Below, in pieces: positions 45,312 through 56,058 of a stretch of DNA of 64,000 nt; position 1 is the first letter of the stretch; every line of letters begins with the position of its first letter. The translations under genes and the position numbers were made by a program. The notes under the pieces are model-generated. The model made no database searches. It was not told where the DNA came from and saw only the letters and a list, made by a program, of their open reading frames with translations. Source of the stretch: Natronomonas salina (GTDB taxonomy: Archaea; Halobacteriota; Halobacteria; Halobacteriales; Haloarculaceae); assembly GCF_013391105.1 (NCBI RefSeq), contig NZ_CP058335.1, positions 1,550,001-1,614,000 on the forward strand, given 5' to 3'.

Positions 45312-46874
45312 TCAGCACAGTAACAGGAAGAACCAGTAGGGCAGGCGGATGAGACGGTCGTCCTGCACGGCGATCGGCTCGTCGGTCGAGACAGTATCGC
45401 CGACGAGCAGGAGGCCGACGGGGGCGTCGTAAGTGTCGAGGAACTCGGTCAACGCCGCCTCGACCGAATCGACGGGCGGTCGATAACCGAAGCCGACCGG
45501 GACTGGTGTTCCGTCCACCTCGAAGATGAAATCGACAGTGTCCTCGCGGCCGCGCCAGTACTGGACCGACGGCTCGACGGTCCGCCCCTGGATCGCTTCG
45601 ACGCCGTACTGGAAGCGCATCGTGTGATCGAAGGCGGCCGCCCGTGCGAGGTCTGCCTCGCGGTCGAAATCGCTGAGCACCCGCGATGCGTCCCCGTCGG
45701 CGAGCGCCGTGACGAGACCGGTGTCGCGCAGGTAGAGCCGAACCGAACGCGGTCGGCTGTTGTCGTATTCGGTCACCCCGTCGAGGAGGTACAGCTCCGA
45801 CAGCGCCGGCAGGTAGCTGTCCGTGATCGTCCGTCGGTCGACGTCGAACAGGTCGACCAGTCGCTGGTAGCGGATCGGATCGCTTGCACAGTCTCGAGCG
45901 GCGAGTGCACACAGCCGCTCGAGGTCGGCGATCGTCTGGATGGTCTCGAAGCCGGGGACGTCCTGATAGAGCGCGTCGCGGACGTCCTTGCGGAGGCGCT
46001 CGTAGTCGCGCCGCGATAGCTCGCTCGCGGAATCGACGACGCCCTCCTGGCTGTAGCTGAGGACGCCGCCCATCGCCAGGTAGTCGACGACCTGCGACTG
46101 GATGCGGCGGGTGTCGTCGGCGATGCGGTCGTACTGCTCCCGCAGCCCCTCGACGAACAGGTCGATGTCACCCGTCTCGACGGCCGTCGGCAGGGACTGC
46201 TCGCCCGTTCGGAGTGGTGTTGGCGACACGCGTTTGTCGTCGGCTTCCAGGTCCGGATACAGCGTGTAGATGTAGTCGCGGAACTTCTCGGGGAGGATCG
46301 GCTGGACGTCGTACTCGGAGGCGTCGATCCCGACGCGGTCGAGCTCGCGTTCGACCTGGATGCCGGCGCTCGCGGTGACGATCACGTGCCGGTCGGGGGC
46401 GTCGAGAAGCTCGCTGACCGGTCGGCCCCAGCCGGTGCTGTTGGGTTTGCTCGCGTGCTCGACCTGGTGGACGTCGTCGAGCACGACGAACTGTGGGGTC
46501 GGGTCGTCAGCCCGGCCCAGAATCCGGCTCTCGTAGTAGCGGACGGCCTGCCGGAGCTGCTCTGCGGACTGGAGCTGATAGAGCGGGTCGGCGTCGAAGG
46601 GGACGTAGAGGAACTGCTCCGGGTCCGCCCCCGCTTCGATGCGATGCTGGACGAACTGCTCGAGGAGCGTCGACTTCCCGACGCCCCGTCGGCCGACCAG
46701 CGCGGAGATGGGGTGGTCCTCGAACTGGCTGATCGCCTCGTCCGGGCGGGCGAGGTGATAGAAGTCGCTCTTCTGGCGTGCGGGCAGCGAGAGTGAATCG
46801 ACGCCGTCCTCCCACCATGGATTGTGATCGTGTAGCCGACGCAAGAGCGCCCCACTCGCCTCGTCCGTGCTCAT
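45312..46874 (-). CDS. AAA ATPase of the DUF4143 group
   Basis: This 520-aa P-loop protein has Walker A LVGRRGVGKSTLLEQF near residue 62 and Walker B FVVLDDVHQVEH near 130. A sensor-like HVIVTASAGIQV stretch follows, then a helical/winged linker. The C-terminal DUF4143-type domain corresponds to an archaeal restriction-like fold. In this family that fold ends with a D...ExK-like triad; here VDFIFEVDGTPVPVGFGY keeps D and E but the K position reads GFG, so nuclease activity is doubtful. The C-terminal end is hydrophobic. It lies upstream of a palindrome at 47000-47015. Confidence 0.8.
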   Translation of the reverse strand: MSTDEASGALLRRLHDHNPWWEDGVDSLSLPARQKSDFYHLARPDEAISQFEDHPISALVGRRGVGKSTLLEQFVQHRIEAGADPEQFLYVPFDADPLYQLQSAEQLRQAVRYYESRILGRADDPTPQFVVLDDVHQVEHASKPNSTGWGRPVSELLDAPDRHVIVTASAGIQVERELDRVGIDASEYDVQPILPEKFRDYIYTLYPDLEADDKRVSPTPLRTGEQSLPTAVETGDIDLFVEGLREQYDRIADDTRRIQSQVVDYLAMGGVLSYSQEGVVDSASELSRRDYERLRKDVRDALYQDVPGFETIQTIADLERLCALAARDCASDPIRYQRLVDLFDVDRRTITDSYLPALSELYLLDGVTEYDNSRPRSVRLYLRDTGLVTALADGDASRVLSDFDREADLARAAAFDHTMRFQYGVEAIQGRTVEPSVQYWRGREDTVDFIFEVDGTPVPVGFGYRPPVDSVEAALTEFLDTYDAPVGLLLVGDTVSTDEPIAVQDDRLIRLPYWFFLLLC

Positions 46875-47106: not shown

Positions 47107-47598
47107 ATGGAGCGTGTGTATCGGTCCGGGTCGCAATCCAGGCAGTACGGCCCGGTGACCACCGACTGCGACCACCAACAGATGGATTCAACTGACACAC
47201 TGCGAGGCGGGACTCGGCACGAACTCACCGTGGAACCCGGCGCGTCACCGGGTCGCGACGGTGAGGGGGACAGGGCCCGGCAGTGGATCGGCGACGAGGA
47301 CGAGACAGGCAGCCTGTTCGGCCCTCCCAGCGTCGACCCACAGCCGGCCCTCCGGACCGGGGTGACATATCGGTTCGCGGGCATCTGGGGATGCACCCAC
47401 GTCGCCCCGGTGGCCGGGTGTGCCGAGACAGCACAGCAGGCGATCCAAGGGGAGGACCGGACCTGTAGGGGGTCACTCCCGTGTGGGGAGTCGAATGACG
47501 AAGGGGACCTCACCATCGACGACAGCGAGTTTGAACCCCTCCGTCCGCTGCAAGCGACTCTACTCTCGGCTGCCCCGGAGGTGACGGGGGATGTGTGA
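47107..47598 (+). CDS. uncertain hypothetical gene before HEAT protein
   Basis: This frame of about 163 aa starts MERVYRSGSQ. An acidic middle (GDEDETGSLFGPPSV) and Cys-containing stretches (IWGCTHVAPVAGCAET, CRGSLPCGES) are seen. Its stop overlaps the HEAT-protein start (ATGTGTGA), an operon-like feature. However, no family is recognised and composition is only partly haloarchaeal. The start is chosen downstream of the TTTAAA element; a frame from 47005 runs over the promoter. It could be a real gene or a chance frame. Confidence 0.35.
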   Translation: MERVYRSGSQSRQYGPVTTDCDHQQMDSTDTLRGGTRHELTVEPGASPGRDGEGDRARQWIGDEDETGSLFGPPSVDPQPALRTGVTYRFAGIWGCTHVAPVAGCAETAQQAIQGEDRTCRGSLPCGESNDEGDLTIDDSEFEPLRPLQATLLSAAPEVTGDV

Positions 47599-48943
47599 GG
47601 CCGCCGAGTGCGACGTCGAGTACGAGACGAAAGGCGACATCCGACCGTCGGGGCTCGACGAGTTCCGATCATTCCTCGCCGAGCAAGCCGACGCGGCAGC
47701 GTACGAGCTCGCGTACACCGACGACGAGGGAGACCACCAGCGGCTCGTCGCGAAGCTGCGTGTCATCGAACGGACGGTCGAGCGCCCGGCCGCAGCGATC
47801 GCCGTGGCGTGTACGGCACTCACGCCGGATGAAGACGACTGGACCGTCCGTCTCGACAGTATCGACCGGGTGACCGCCCTGGAACTACCGTCGGATGAGG
47901 CCCTCACAGGGGAGCCCACACCGAAGTACGATAACGCCGGTGCGTTCCTGAATCTCGCTCGGGTGGCACCCGAGCGGATCGACGTCCCGGATCTCGTCGC
48001 GTTCCTGCGGGGCGCCGACGACGACGGCCGGGATGCGGGGCTCGGCGCCCTCCGGTCGGCGCTGCGTGCAGACCCGGAGTCGGCCGAGGTCGCAATACCG
48101 CTGCTCCGCGACCTGCTGGCCGAGGAGCACAACGTGACGCGCGTCCTCGAGATTTTGGCGACCGTCACCGGCGAGCGGCCGGCCGAGGTCGCACCGTTCG
48201 TCGAGGAGCTCAGGCCGTACCTCGGCGACGACGGAGAGCGTCGTGCCTACGCCGCGGAGTGTCTCTCGGATATCGCCGCCCACGACCCCTCGGACGTGAT
48301 GGCGGCTGTGCCGGCGCTGGCGTCGCTCGTCGACGACCGCGACGACGGGGTCACCCACGCGCTGTTCGCGCTGAACCGGATCGCCGCGGAGCATCCCAGC
48401 GAGGTGCTGCCCGCGGCGCCGACGCTCTCCGACGCGCTCGCCGAGCCGTCGCTCTCGAGCTCGGATCGCCTGAACGCGACCGCGGCGCTCGGCCGGGTGG
48501 CCAGCGAGTATCCGGATGCCGGCCTCGACACCGTCGACGACCTCGTCGAGCTCCTCGATTGTGACGATCCCAGACTCCGGGTGAACGCGACCGGCGTGTT
48601 GAGCGACGTGGCCGTCGTCCACAGCGGTGCGCTCGTCCCGCACGTCGACGAGCTCGAGTCGCTGCTGTACAGCGACGACGAGTACACCCTCATTAACACG
48701 TCGGCCGGCCTCGGCCGGATTGCGGAGGTCGAACCCGAGGCAGTCGAGCATTTCACGGATCGCTTCGTCGAGCTGCTCGACCACGACCAGGAGGTCGTCC
48801 GCGAGAACGCCTGCTGGGCGCTCGGCTACCTCGAAGCCGAATCGGCCCTCGAGCGTCTCGAAGCGGTTCGACTCGACGACGAGGCGGAACGCGTCCGCAA
48901 CATCGCCGCCTGGGCGATCGCCGAGATCGAGGGGTGGGCGTAG
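47591..48943 (+). CDS. HEAT-repeat protein
   Basis: This 450-aa protein has an acidic N-terminal domain (about residues 1-110), then roughly eight HEAT/armadillo-type helical repeats: YAAECLSDIAAHDPSDVMA, ALFALNRIAAEHPSEVLPA, NATAALGRVASEYPDAGLDT, NACWALGYLEAESALERLEA. Such repeats bind proteins or RNA. Its C-terminus has the classical VRNIAAWAIAEIEG. The start overlaps the preceding frame. A VWA gene follows after 76 bp in the same direction, suggesting a shared transcript. Confidence 0.85.
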   Translation: MCEAAECDVEYETKGDIRPSGLDEFRSFLAEQADAAAYELAYTDDEGDHQRLVAKLRVIERTVERPAAAIAVACTALTPDEDDWTVRLDSIDRVTALELPSDEALTGEPTPKYDNAGAFLNLARVAPERIDVPDLVAFLRGADDDGRDAGLGALRSALRADPESAEVAIPLLRDLLAEEHNVTRVLEILATVTGERPAEVAPFVEELRPYLGDDGERRAYAAECLSDIAAHDPSDVMAAVPALASLVDDRDDGVTHALFALNRIAAEHPSEVLPAAPTLSDALAEPSLSSSDRLNATAALGRVASEYPDAGLDTVDDLVELLDCDDPRLRVNATGVLSDVAVVHSGALVPHVDELESLLYSDDEYTLINTSAGLGRIAEVEPEAVEHFTDRFVELLDHDQEVVRENACWALGYLEAESALERLEAVRLDDEAERVRNIAAWAIAEIEGWA

Positions 48944-50861: not shown

Positions 50862-52799
50862 TCAGAGGTCGGTGATGCGATGATAGTTGTCGTCAAGCGC
50901 CTCGGCGTCCTCCGGCAGCAGAGCTACGATGAGGTGGTCGCTGTACTCTTCGAGATGGTTCACGAGCGTCGCGATTCGGTCCGAATCGATCGCCTCCAGC
51001 GAGTCGAGGAGCATGAACGGGACCGTCTCGTAGACGTTGTGGGCGAGGTAGCCCGCCAGCGCGAACACGAGTCCGGTCACCTCTCGTTCGCTCTCGCTCA
51101 GGTGCTCGATCGTATCCTCGTACGTCGCGCCACTCTCGGTTTCGCGGATGATGTGCAACTCGAAGATGCGTTTCGTGACCTTGCGTCGACCCTCGCGGAC
51201 CTCGCGTTCGACCCGCTCCAGCCAGATGCGCTCGAGGTTCCGGTACTCGAGGATGTCCAGGACGGTGTCCATGTGCTCGTTGAACGCCTCGATGGCCTGG
51301 GACTCGATCCGATCGATCTTCGTCCGCAACGTCTCGATCTCGGCGTCGATCTCGGCGCGACGCTCGACTAACTCACTTTCGTCGTCGAGACGGGCCTCGA
51401 TCTCGGCGATCTCGGCTTCGACGTCTTCCAGGTCGCCCTCCAGGCGTCCCAGTTCGTACTCGTACTGGTTGGCTTCCTTGTGGAGGTCCAGGACCTCTTC
51501 GTACGAGTCGTCCTCCAGGTCCGCGATCTCGGCTTCGAGGGATTCGATCTCGTCTTGGAGTTCCTCACGTCGATCGCCGAGCCGGTCGATGGTCGCCTCG
51601 CTCGTCTCGATCTCGGCTTCCGCCTCGTCGATGCGACGCTCGAGTTTCTCGCGCTTCCGTTGCTGCTCTCGGAGCTCCCGGATCTCCGTCGACAGCTCGT
51701 CGATCTCTGACTCGATGTCGTTTACCTCCCCGAGCTTGTTCTGACTGAGTTCCTGGAGGCGACTGACGGTCGTCTCGATCTGGTCTTCGGGGACCTCGCT
51801 GCCACAGGTCCAGCAGGTCACCGTCTCGTCGGGCAACAGTTCCTCGGTGACGTCGTCCGCCGGCTCCTCCAGTGCGTCCAGCACGTCACCGCTGGCGTCT
51901 TCCAGCATCTTCCGGTTGAACCCGATGACGCTCTGTATCTCGTTGACCTCCGACTCGAGGCGGCGTTTCTTCTCACGCAACTGGTCGCGCCGTGACTCCC
52001 GCTCGTCGATGTCCCCGATCGGCGCTTCCGGGAGTTCGTCGAGCTCGGCCGCTGCCTCCCGCTTCTCGGCCCGGATGGATTCGAGGCTCTCGCGCTCCGT
52101 CTCGAGGTCGTAGCGGACGTCCTCGATGGTCGAGCGCTTCACCCGGAGCTCCTCTAACCGCTCCTCGAGTTCGGCCTTCTCCTCGCGTGTCTCCTCGACG
52201 TCCGCGTCGCGCTCTTCGATCTCCTCCTCCAGTGACGCCAATTCCTCGCTCGTCTCCTCGATCTCATCGCGAAGCTGCGTCCGGCGCTCCTCCAGCGACG
52301 GGAGCCGATCCTTCAGTGAATCGAGCTCCTCCAGTTCGCGTTCGACCTCTTTTCGCTCCTCGACGAGCCGGTCGATCTCACGCTGGATCTCGTCGGTATC
52401 GATCGGCCGCATGATGAGATCGCGAAGGTTCTCTTGGGTGACGACCGCTCGTCGGGCTTCGTTGGATTCGAGCAGGAACGCGAAGAGGTCCGCTATCGTC
52501 GAATCCTCGAGATAGGGGTCGCCAGTACTGCTGAACGACGTCCCCTGACGTGTCAGTTCGCGGGTGTACGTCTCCCCCTCCAGCTCGAGTTCGACAAAGG
52601 CCTCGTCGGCGTCGCCCTTCATCGACACCTGGTCACTGCCGAGGGCGGCCATGATCGCTTGGAGGAACGACGTCCGGTTCGTCGCGTTCTCGCCCTTCAG
52701 CACGGTCACACCCGGAGAGAACGTAACTTCGGTCTCGTCGATTCCGCCGATGTTCCGCGCCCGTATCGAGACGGGGTCAGTCTTCTGACGAGAACTCAT
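50862..52799 (-). CDS. archaea-specific SMC-related protein
   Basis: This 645-aa protein has an SMC/Rad50-like plan. An N-terminal ATPase half carries GENATNRTSFLQAIMAALG, where the P-loop Lys is replaced by Arg43 as in haloarchaeal SMC-related proteins. Very long coiled coils lie at about residues 135-300 and 340-530. A zinc-hook-like CWTCGSEV (Cys329, Cys332) lies between them. The C-terminal half has a signature-like HLSESEREVTGLVFALAG and Walker B FMLLDSLEAIDS. It probably binds DNA or chromatin. The gene follows rdfA on the same strand with a 55-bp gap. Confidence 0.85.
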   Translation of the reverse strand: MSSRQKTDPVSIRARNIGGIDETEVTFSPGVTVLKGENATNRTSFLQAIMAALGSDQVSMKGDADEAFVELELEGETYTRELTRQGTSFSSTGDPYLEDSTIADLFAFLLESNEARRAVVTQENLRDLIMRPIDTDEIQREIDRLVEERKEVERELEELDSLKDRLPSLEERRTQLRDEIEETSEELASLEEEIEERDADVEETREEKAELEERLEELRVKRSTIEDVRYDLETERESLESIRAEKREAAAELDELPEAPIGDIDERESRRDQLREKKRRLESEVNEIQSVIGFNRKMLEDASGDVLDALEEPADDVTEELLPDETVTCWTCGSEVPEDQIETTVSRLQELSQNKLGEVNDIESEIDELSTEIRELREQQRKREKLERRIDEAEAEIETSEATIDRLGDRREELQDEIESLEAEIADLEDDSYEEVLDLHKEANQYEYELGRLEGDLEDVEAEIAEIEARLDDESELVERRAEIDAEIETLRTKIDRIESQAIEAFNEHMDTVLDILEYRNLERIWLERVEREVREGRRKVTKRIFELHIIRETESGATYEDTIEHLSESEREVTGLVFALAGYLAHNVYETVPFMLLDSLEAIDSDRIATLVNHLEEYSDHLIVALLPEDAEALDDNYHRITDL

Positions 52800-52854
52800 T
52801 ACGTGGGTCTCACGCGGGACGTGACGTAAATGTAGTGACTGTAATCATCAAGGA

Positions 52855-53472
52855 CTACGGAGCACAGTCGCAGCTCCCTGATTCGAGGAGTTCGAGGACG
52901 TCGTACTGGGTGTTGCAGTCCTCACAGACGACGCGGACGTCGACGAGCGTTCGGAACGTGCCGATATCGAGTGCGCCGCTACTCTGTAATTGTTCCAGTT
53001 TCCCCTCCGTGACCGAGTCCACTCGACCCCGTAACTGCTGGATGTTCGTGATCTCCCGTTCCAGCGGATCGGTCTCGTCTGGGGTGTACTCGGCGTCACG
53101 GTACTTCGTGAGATAGCTGCGGATCGCCTGGTAGGTGACGAACTCGTCCTGCAACCGATCGACGTCGATTCCATCCCGTTCGAGCCGACGACGTGCACGT
53201 GTCCGGTCGGCACTCCCGACATCGTCACTGTTCAACAGACGATAGGTGTTCTCGACCTCGCCGTCGAGGGTCTGGACGCCATTAGCCTCCATCGCCGCCT
53301 CCAGTACGGCTTGATTGAAGTGGTCCGCGAGGTCGCGTAGACTCCACCGATCCTCGTCGTCCGTCCAGCGTCGTTCCATCTCGGCGCCCAGCCCCTGGAG
53401 GTCGTACTCGTCGATGAGGCGTCCCACCTTGCTGCGTCTCCCCCTCCCCGACGTATTAGAGTCCTCCGTCAT
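52855..53472 (-). CDS. rdfA: RdfA-family protein
   Basis: This 205-aa protein resembles the haloarchaeal rod-determining factor RdfA family. The N-terminus (GRGRRSKVGRLIDEYDLQ) is basic, then comes WSLRDLADHFNQAVLEAAM. A Cys pair (CEDCNTQYD) and CDC at the C-terminus could bind zinc. Family members affect cell shape in Haloferax volcanii, but there are several per genome, often beside SMC-related genes, so this copy may serve another role. First gene of the two-gene unit with the SMC-related gene. Confidence 0.75.
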   Translation of the reverse strand: MTEDSNTSGRGRRSKVGRLIDEYDLQGLGAEMERRWTDDEDRWSLRDLADHFNQAVLEAAMEANGVQTLDGEVENTYRLLNSDDVGSADRTRARRRLERDGIDVDRLQDEFVTYQAIRSYLTKYRDAEYTPDETDPLEREITNIQQLRGRVDSVTEGKLEQLQSSGALDIGTFRTLVDVRVVCEDCNTQYDVLELLESGSCDCAP

Positions 53473-55791: not shown

Positions 55792-56058
55792 ATGATGGAT
55801 ATCGCAACGACCATCGTTTCAAGGGTCGGAGAGTTAGCGCAGCGGGACCCCCTCGAGCTCCCGCCGCTGGCCGAGACGATCGACGTCGACGCACTCGAAC
55901 GAGCGATCGACTCGGTTGACGGGCCATTCAGTATCCAGTTCACCTACTGTGGTTATACGGTGACGATCACCGGCGAAGACGACGTCTCGATCTGCGCCGT
56001 CACGGAAGGCGGACTCACCGATCCCAGCGGTCCGTCCCCCGAGCGTACCCGATTATAA
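55792..56058 (+). CDS. HalOD1 output-domain protein
   Basis: This 88-aa free-standing HalOD1 domain has TTIVSRVGELAQRDPLELPP, LAETIDVDALERAI and IQFTYCGYTVTITG, matching the copy at 22578-22841 in layout. The first two codons are both ATG; either may start. Signalling output domain, target unknown. It lies in a gene-poor region. Confidence 0.8.
   Translation: MMDIATTIVSRVGELAQRDPLELPPLAETIDVDALERAIDSVDGPFSIQFTYCGYTVTITGEDDVSICAVTEGGLTDPSGPSPERTRL

Follow-up and report, generated by a model that had tools for sequence, protein, structure and literature searches.

The gene pair at positions 50862..53472 of a 64,000-nucleotide stretch of the Natronomonas salina chromosome (NZ_CP058335.1, positions 1,550,001 to 1,614,000; hereafter the window) encodes an RdfA homologue and an archaea-specific SMC-related protein (ASRP) of the Sph type. 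With a probability of roughly 0.55, we regard it as an RdfA-Sph module of cell shape and chromosome architecture in which RdfA is the dedicated partner of an SMC-like scaffold with slow or no ATP hydrolysis. In the window ASRP, Arg42 and Ser600 stand at the positions of the Walker A lysine and the catalytic glutamate, and the same two residues were found in 69 of the 89 haloarchaeal ASRPs that we surveyed.

Identification of the RdfA-ASRP gene pair

The first gene of the pair, rdfA (52855..53472, minus strand), encodes a helical protein of 205 residues with a C-terminal Cys4 motif. It is followed by the ASRP gene (50862..52799, minus strand; 645 residues) across a gap that reads as 55 bases in the sequence (52800..52854), and the two genes are likely co-transcribed. 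The rdfA product scored 262.9 bits against the RdfA family PF21811 (cut-off 27), covering model positions 1-195 of 195, and its partner scored 693.3 bits against NF045487, 'archaea-specific SMC-related protein' (cut-off 300), covering positions 1-593 of 593. The family assignment of both proteins is beyond doubt, and the window pair shows the adjacent rdfA and sph genes of the RdfA-Sph3 module. A preliminary description, made from the DNA letters alone, had proposed an RdfA gene and then an SMC-like gene at these positions, and both families were confirmed.

That description had also mentioned a link between RdfA and cell shape in Haloferax, which is indeed published, rdfA and sph3 both being needed for rods (PMC10869688). 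According to the available part of this paper (Schiller et al. 2024), deletion of either gene turns Haloferax volcanii into non-motile discs, and across 24 genomes 42 RdfA genes out of 54 adjoin an SMC-like gene. The pairing of RdfA with an SMC-like protein is therefore already known from Haloferax rdfA/sph3 (PMC10869688), and the window pair is of this published kind. As in the H. volcanii rdfA-sph3 locus (HVO_2174/HVO_2175), the same two families are adjacent and a HalOD1 gene lies nearby, as ddfA does there; unlike ddfA, the window HalOD1 gene scores below the DdfA cut-off, lies 2.3 kb off and is on the other strand. This likeness was drawn from the published description at the level of family and adjacency, not of a particular sph paralogue. 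The introduction of PMC13286277, in its available part, states that Sph3 keeps cells plate-shaped, and the primary paper reports that sph3 deletion strains form discs only.

An altered ATPase site in the SMC-like protein

The window ASRP was predicted, with a predicted local distance difference test (pLDDT) score of 83, to form an SMC/Rad50 head and a coiled coil that bears its CxxC hook at residues 329-332. The model aligned with 5xns_A over 324 residues (VIA Z 21.5, root-mean-square deviation 3.9) and its Foldseek list includes Rad50, Smc5/6, MukB, LmuB and JetABC chains; a profile search of solved structures returned six weak matches, mostly to coiled-coil regions. The zinc hook named in the preliminary description is present in the hinge as C329-W-T-C332 (51804..51815, minus strand), both in the sequence and in the alignment, where a CxxC hook occupies the same columns in 89/89 surveyed haloarchaeal ASRPs. 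Its altered P-loop, GENATNRTS, was also found, at G36-ENATNRT-S44 (52668..52694, minus strand) between strand 30-35 and helix 39-53 of the model, although the variant arginine is residue 42 and not 43 as had been given.

Within this P-loop, where the model places Arg42, Asn41 also replaces the glycine that precedes the Walker A lysine. The Walker B motif, F595-MLL-D599-S600-L-E602 (50994..51017, minus strand), includes strand 595-598 of the model; Ser600 directly follows this strand in place of the catalytic glutamate, and Glu602 lies three residues past Asp599. The signature motif, L567-SESE-R572 (51084..51101, minus strand), adjoins helix 569-586 and departs from the canonical form LSGGE. 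Since the NF045487 cut-off is exceeded, the protein with Arg42 and Ser600 is a variant of the ASRP family and not an outsider to it. The available text of the paper in which Yoshinaga et al. 2022 named the ASRP family (PMC9389158) names the motifs and makes no mention of these residues.

The survey covered 58 haloarchaeal genomes, all in one to four contigs, in which ASRPs were sought at E 1e-60; of these genomes, 51 were picked with RdfA and seven without. Alignment of the 89 ASRPs divided the P-loops into NAT[N/H]R[TS]S (69 proteins), NA[STA]NK[TS]S (9) and a GKSS form (11). The Arg P-loop is thus no chance or one-off feature, given its presence in 69 proteins; it was also seen at 80/80 named loci, a count biased towards it because these loci were retrieved with patterns containing the Arg motif. 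The residue after the Walker B aspartate was never Glu (0/89; 0/11 among the GKS-type proteins) but Ser, Ala, Gly or Gln. All 69 Arg-type proteins have Ser at this position and Glu three residues past the aspartate, and the signature follows the P-loop type, with LSESE in 68/69 Arg-type and LSEGE in 11/11 GKS-type proteins. Coalescin ClsN and the non-haloarchaeal ASRPs share the family, the SMC head and the zinc hook with the window protein, ClsN being compared by description only (PMC9389158, available part). Unlike it, 11 outgroup ASRPs, found in ten genomes of the phylum outside the haloarchaea, retain the Walker A lysine (11/11) and mostly the glutamate after the aspartate (8/11). The Arg label does not form one clean clade on the ASRP tree, which was made by a quick method with a midpoint root and has long branches: three changes are needed, and Lys occurs once within the main Arg group (L127).

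In other P-loop ATPases, replacement of this lysine by arginine and loss of the glutamate abolish or slow hydrolysis. The Arg and Ser substitutions suggest that Sph may bind ATP poorly, or may bind it with hydrolysis that is slow or absent. The literature searched, which did not extend to papers behind a subscription, Ruepp et al. 1998 on Halobacterium Hp71 among them, yielded no description of the Arg P-loop or of the IclR linkage reported below, nor did we find in it an account of this apparent loss of the usual ATP-hydrolysis residues in the Sph partner of RdfA.

The same types recur in Halobacterium salinarum. Its plasmid-borne rdfA-sph2 pair (WP_318655298.1, strain KBTZ01) has the window's gene order, rdfA then sph, and an Arg P-loop (NATGRTS) together with LSESER and LDSLEA, in which Ser follows the Walker B aspartate; it differs in keeping Gly before the arginine, in its plasmid location and in the potassium-uptake genes (TrkA family, kdp) beside it. 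The rdfA-sph1 pair on plasmid pNRC200 likewise has rdfA directly upstream, a zinc hook and no Glu after the aspartate, but Sph1 differs from the window protein in its GKS P-loop, its LSEGE signature and the Gly after its Walker B aspartate. Sph1 resembles more closely a second RdfA-ASRP pair of the N. salina chromosome (1675777-1678126 in chromosome coordinates; L162), with the P-loop GTNWQGKS and about 72 kb from the window pair. The genome thus has one Arg-type pair, that of the window, and one GKS-type pair.

It is also conceivable, though in our judgement rather unlikely, that the window Sph is a working ATPase with an odd site, in which Arg42 would serve for the lysine and Glu602 or a residue of a partner for the catalytic glutamate, the module then being a cycling DNA-bridging or loop-extruding complex. 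The strong retention of LSESE, of the serine and of the later glutamate in Arg-type proteins points to selection on this site, in Halobacterium Sph2 the arginine is still preceded by Gly, and all four Haloferax Sph proteins matter in gene conversion, according to the available part of PMC11276520. Against this stand the lysine and glutamate of most outgroup ASRPs, lost here, and the GKS-type haloarchaeal proteins, which lack the glutamate too.

Association of RdfA with ASRPs

RdfA is present in 351/391 genomes of the haloarchaeal class. The 58 surveyed genomes gave 104 RdfA matches, including a few fragments; ASRPs occurred in 51/51 RdfA-bearing and 0/7 RdfA-lacking genomes. An RdfA gene lay within 1.5 kb of 80 of the 89 ASRPs, in all four relative orientations (57 RdfA->ASRP, 10 convergent, 9 ASRP->RdfA and 4 divergent); the adjacency therefore survives rearrangement and does not require a single operon. 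Similarly, an RdfA partner was found in the fetched flank at 66 of the 80 named loci. At two surveyed loci, L115 (genome G042) and L123 (G074), RdfA genes flank a single ASRP gene on both sides.

The distance matrices of the 80 RdfA/ASRP pairs correlated with r = 0.905. When partners were swapped within genomes (1000 shuffles, 24 genomes with at least two pairs) the mean r fell to 0.40 and the maximum to 0.72, so that each RdfA tracks its own neighbouring ASRP and not merely its own genome.

Outside the haloarchaea, 392 genomes were sampled and ten contained an ASRP. An RdfA homologue stood directly beside it in four of the ten, all four in one family, with scores of 52.7, 35.2, 25.3 and 21.9 bits, two of which exceed the cut-off of 27. 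One of these four genomes has a second ASRP with no RdfA beside it, and the six other genomes gave no RdfA match at E 0.1. The four RdfA-linked ASRPs carry both residues (Lys 4/4, Glu 4/4) and group with the haloarchaeal ASRPs (Shimodaira-Hasegawa-like approximate likelihood ratio test, SH-aLRT, 98). Judged from these sequences, the simplest order would be that the RdfA/ASRP partnership came first and that the residues were lost later, in the haloarchaeal line. A second search, with an RdfA model widened to include the four non-haloarchaeal homologues, found RdfA-like genes in two more genomes of another family, G564 (locus L291) and G572 (L290). Each of the two genes adjoins small proteins, and those at one locus resemble those at the other.

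Genomic setting and the question of defence

In 2-kb steps, the G+C content of the window ranges from 0.63 to 0.72 across its first 49 kb and from 0.57 to 0.62 near the pair; beyond the window, to 1.718 Mb of the chromosome, values of 0.50-0.64 prevail, interrupted by two patches at 0.65-0.69. The preliminary description had called this an accessory region, which is fair given the low G+C around the pair and the defence genes further along. When six Natronomonas loci were compared with the window by blastn, the pair alone matched (at one locus the ASRP alone) and the flanks within 3.5 kb did not; RdfA is turned round in three of the six. Of the 89 ASRPs, 15 lie on contigs under 1 Mb, and where the main contig is known 8/82 copies lie off it, against 4.3 expected from base shares (genome sizes rounded). 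A survey of plasmids, which the preliminary description had proposed, recovered the SMC-like protein in 113 plasmid records and RdfA in 123. Confinement to core chromosomal loci with a conserved role in cell shape, named there as the observation that would refute a plasmid-maintenance or defence role, was not what we saw: the site is accessory here, and there are plasmid copies elsewhere. The RdfA-ASRP pair behaves as an accessory yet nearly universal module.

This setting, together with the likeness of the ASRP model to LmuB and JetC among other SMC-type proteins and with PbeA, PbeC and TmtA-like genes 25-50 kb away, favours a role in plasmid maintenance or in anti-plasmid or antiviral defence like that of Wadjet or Lamassu, in line with the suggestion of the preliminary description for some copies. 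We consider that role very improbable for the window pair. Defence genes are patchy as a rule, and RdfA is near-universal in the class. No PADLOC model matched RdfA, and the best PADLOC match of the window ASRP was LmuB at 73 bits, compared with 693.3 bits for its own family. LmuB and JetC share an SMC/Rad50-type head and a coiled coil with the window protein, but there is no match at family level, and among the twelve window proteins at 45-61 kb no effector or Jet partner was found: none matched LmuA, and the SMC-like gene alone matched JetC (34.8 bits at most, among the 25 families shown), with no other Jet match. Eight of the ten other open reading frames in this interval, those nearest to the pair, had no PADLOC match; the remaining two are an ATPase with AAA_14 and DUF4143 domains (45312-46874, minus strand; candidate PDC-S01, 68.8 bits) and a HEAT-repeat protein (47591-48943; weak OloA match, 20.9 bits). 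At most 5/113 neighbours of Arg-type pairs matched a PADLOC model at 1e-20 (SspA 2, DndA 2, mad3 1), in a scan made without a control set. The RdfA query found nothing in 50,697 phage records and the ASRP query no copy in IMG/VR, and the published phenotypes are those of shape, motility and gene conversion. A defence role is possible for some copy, but it found no positive support in this analysis.

On the same chromosome (chromosome coordinates), a defence cluster with a TmtA-like protein of 2182 residues, PbeA and PbeC lies at 1628277-1652690 (L171, L172) and, together with a type II methyltransferase at 1656385-1657995, stands between the two RdfA-ASRP pairs. A candidate toxin-antitoxin pair of a PIN-domain toxin and an AbrB-type antitoxin was recognised by eye at 1618861-1619603.

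RdfA structure and neighbouring genes

In its AlphaFold2 model (pLDDT 89) the window RdfA is helical, with a Cys4 hairpin at the C terminus. The zinc-ribbon-like motif consists of C183, C186, C201 and C203 (52864..52926, minus strand), in columns at least 90% conserved across 46 RdfA sequences. Comparison of the model with solved structures gave no match with an E value of 0.001 or lower by Foldseek and none with a Z of at least 5 by VIA, and the best profile match reached only E 0.076; this absence of structural relatives should not be taken as evidence of a new fold.

IclR domains were found in 17-18 of the 113 immediate neighbours of 60 Arg-type pairs. A separate search of 89 loci (L081-L169) placed 26 IclR genes within 1.5 kb, spread over 22/89 loci, against 0.39 expected from the 142 IclR genes of 26 genomes; restricted to those 26 genomes, 8 were observed against 0.20 expected. 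These Poisson figures assume that loci are independent of each other, which does not hold for related ones. The IclR genes lie on either side of the ASRP gene or RdfA-ASRP unit in variable orientation, and one stands upstream of rdfA both at the Halobacterium sph1 locus and in Natribaculum luteum, the closest plasmid copy. Such crowding would suit a regulatory explanation, in which RdfA is a DNA-binding regulator, the pair and a nearby IclR protein form a nutrient-responsive switch, and the effect on shape is indirect. We think this improbable: no IclR gene stands beside the window pair, the sole IclR match of the genome being at 2.67 Mb; no DNA-binding fold was recognised in the Foldseek and VIA comparisons of the predicted RdfA model; and an IclR protein regulates its neighbours and need not share their function.

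A small HalOD1 protein resembling DdfA is encoded divergently from rdfA (55792..56058, plus strand) and was not counted in the unit. It scored 54.9 bits against PF18545 and 53.7 bits against the DdfA model NF053557, below the latter's cut-off of 70. HalOD1/DdfA was considered as a conserved third gene and rejected, as it occurs within 6.5 kb at 9/80 paired loci with no crowding near the pair; this agrees with the available part of PMC10869688. HalOD1 proteins are common: the genome studied here gave 24 matches at E 1e-10. Among the named loci, 4/80 have one in the fetched flank (L210, L213, L268 and L280), and in the two that are from Natronomonas, L210 and L213, it is placed as in the window.

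Discussion

In the mechanism that we favour, the haloarchaeal RdfA-Sph module would help to set cell shape and probably chromosome architecture. With a normal SMC/Rad50 head and zinc hook, an arginine for the Walker A lysine and a serine for the catalytic glutamate, Sph would work as a zinc-hooked clamp or scaffold that persists, instead of cycling as a loop-extruding motor, and RdfA would be the dedicated adaptor of the neighbouring Sph. RdfA possibly partnered an ATPase-competent ASRP before the residues were lost in the haloarchaeal line.

Several observations weigh against this interpretation. Arg P-loops may still bind nucleotide, and the conserved position of Glu602 would speak for a working, odd site rather than a dead one, in which this residue could serve as the base. 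The association has exceptions: 9/89 ASRPs have no RdfA within 1.5 kb (one of them has it 1.7 kb away), 24/104 RdfA matches, fragments included, have no ASRP within 1.5 kb, no RdfA was seen in the fetched flank at 14/80 named loci, and G072, a genome of a second sample, has RdfA matches and no ASRP over the cut-off. Beside the RdfA-like genes of G564 and G572 no ASRP was seen, on contigs that are short on one side, so RdfA can apparently occur alone. Linkage by itself makes trees agree, and the correlation of the two proteins is therefore no proof of contact. The Haloferax Sph paralogues also differ from one another, and the phenotype of the window copy thus cannot be read from sph3: sph2 deletion leaves mostly rods, and sph2 and sph4 are not deletable together (PMC11276520, available part).

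A broader evolutionary proposal is more tentative than our interpretation of the window pair, and we offer it as a possibility. The RdfA-linked haloarchaeal Sph proteins may be an SMC branch that has abandoned ATP cycling: once they were paired with RdfA, the catalytic glutamate would have gone first and the Walker A Gly-Lys of the main clade next, and the proteins would now be zinc-hooked scaffolds assembled by RdfA, with IclR-coupled expression at many loci, to set cell shape. The four non-haloarchaeal pairs, in which the same kind of partner stands beside an apparently intact ATPase, make the two states comparable.

In the haloarchaeal switch between rods and discs, few factors are known to be necessary for the rod form, and RdfA and Sph3 are two of them. 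The conserved loss of ATPase residues in Sph leads to a sharp and testable prediction, namely that this protein would work as a scaffold and not as a motor.

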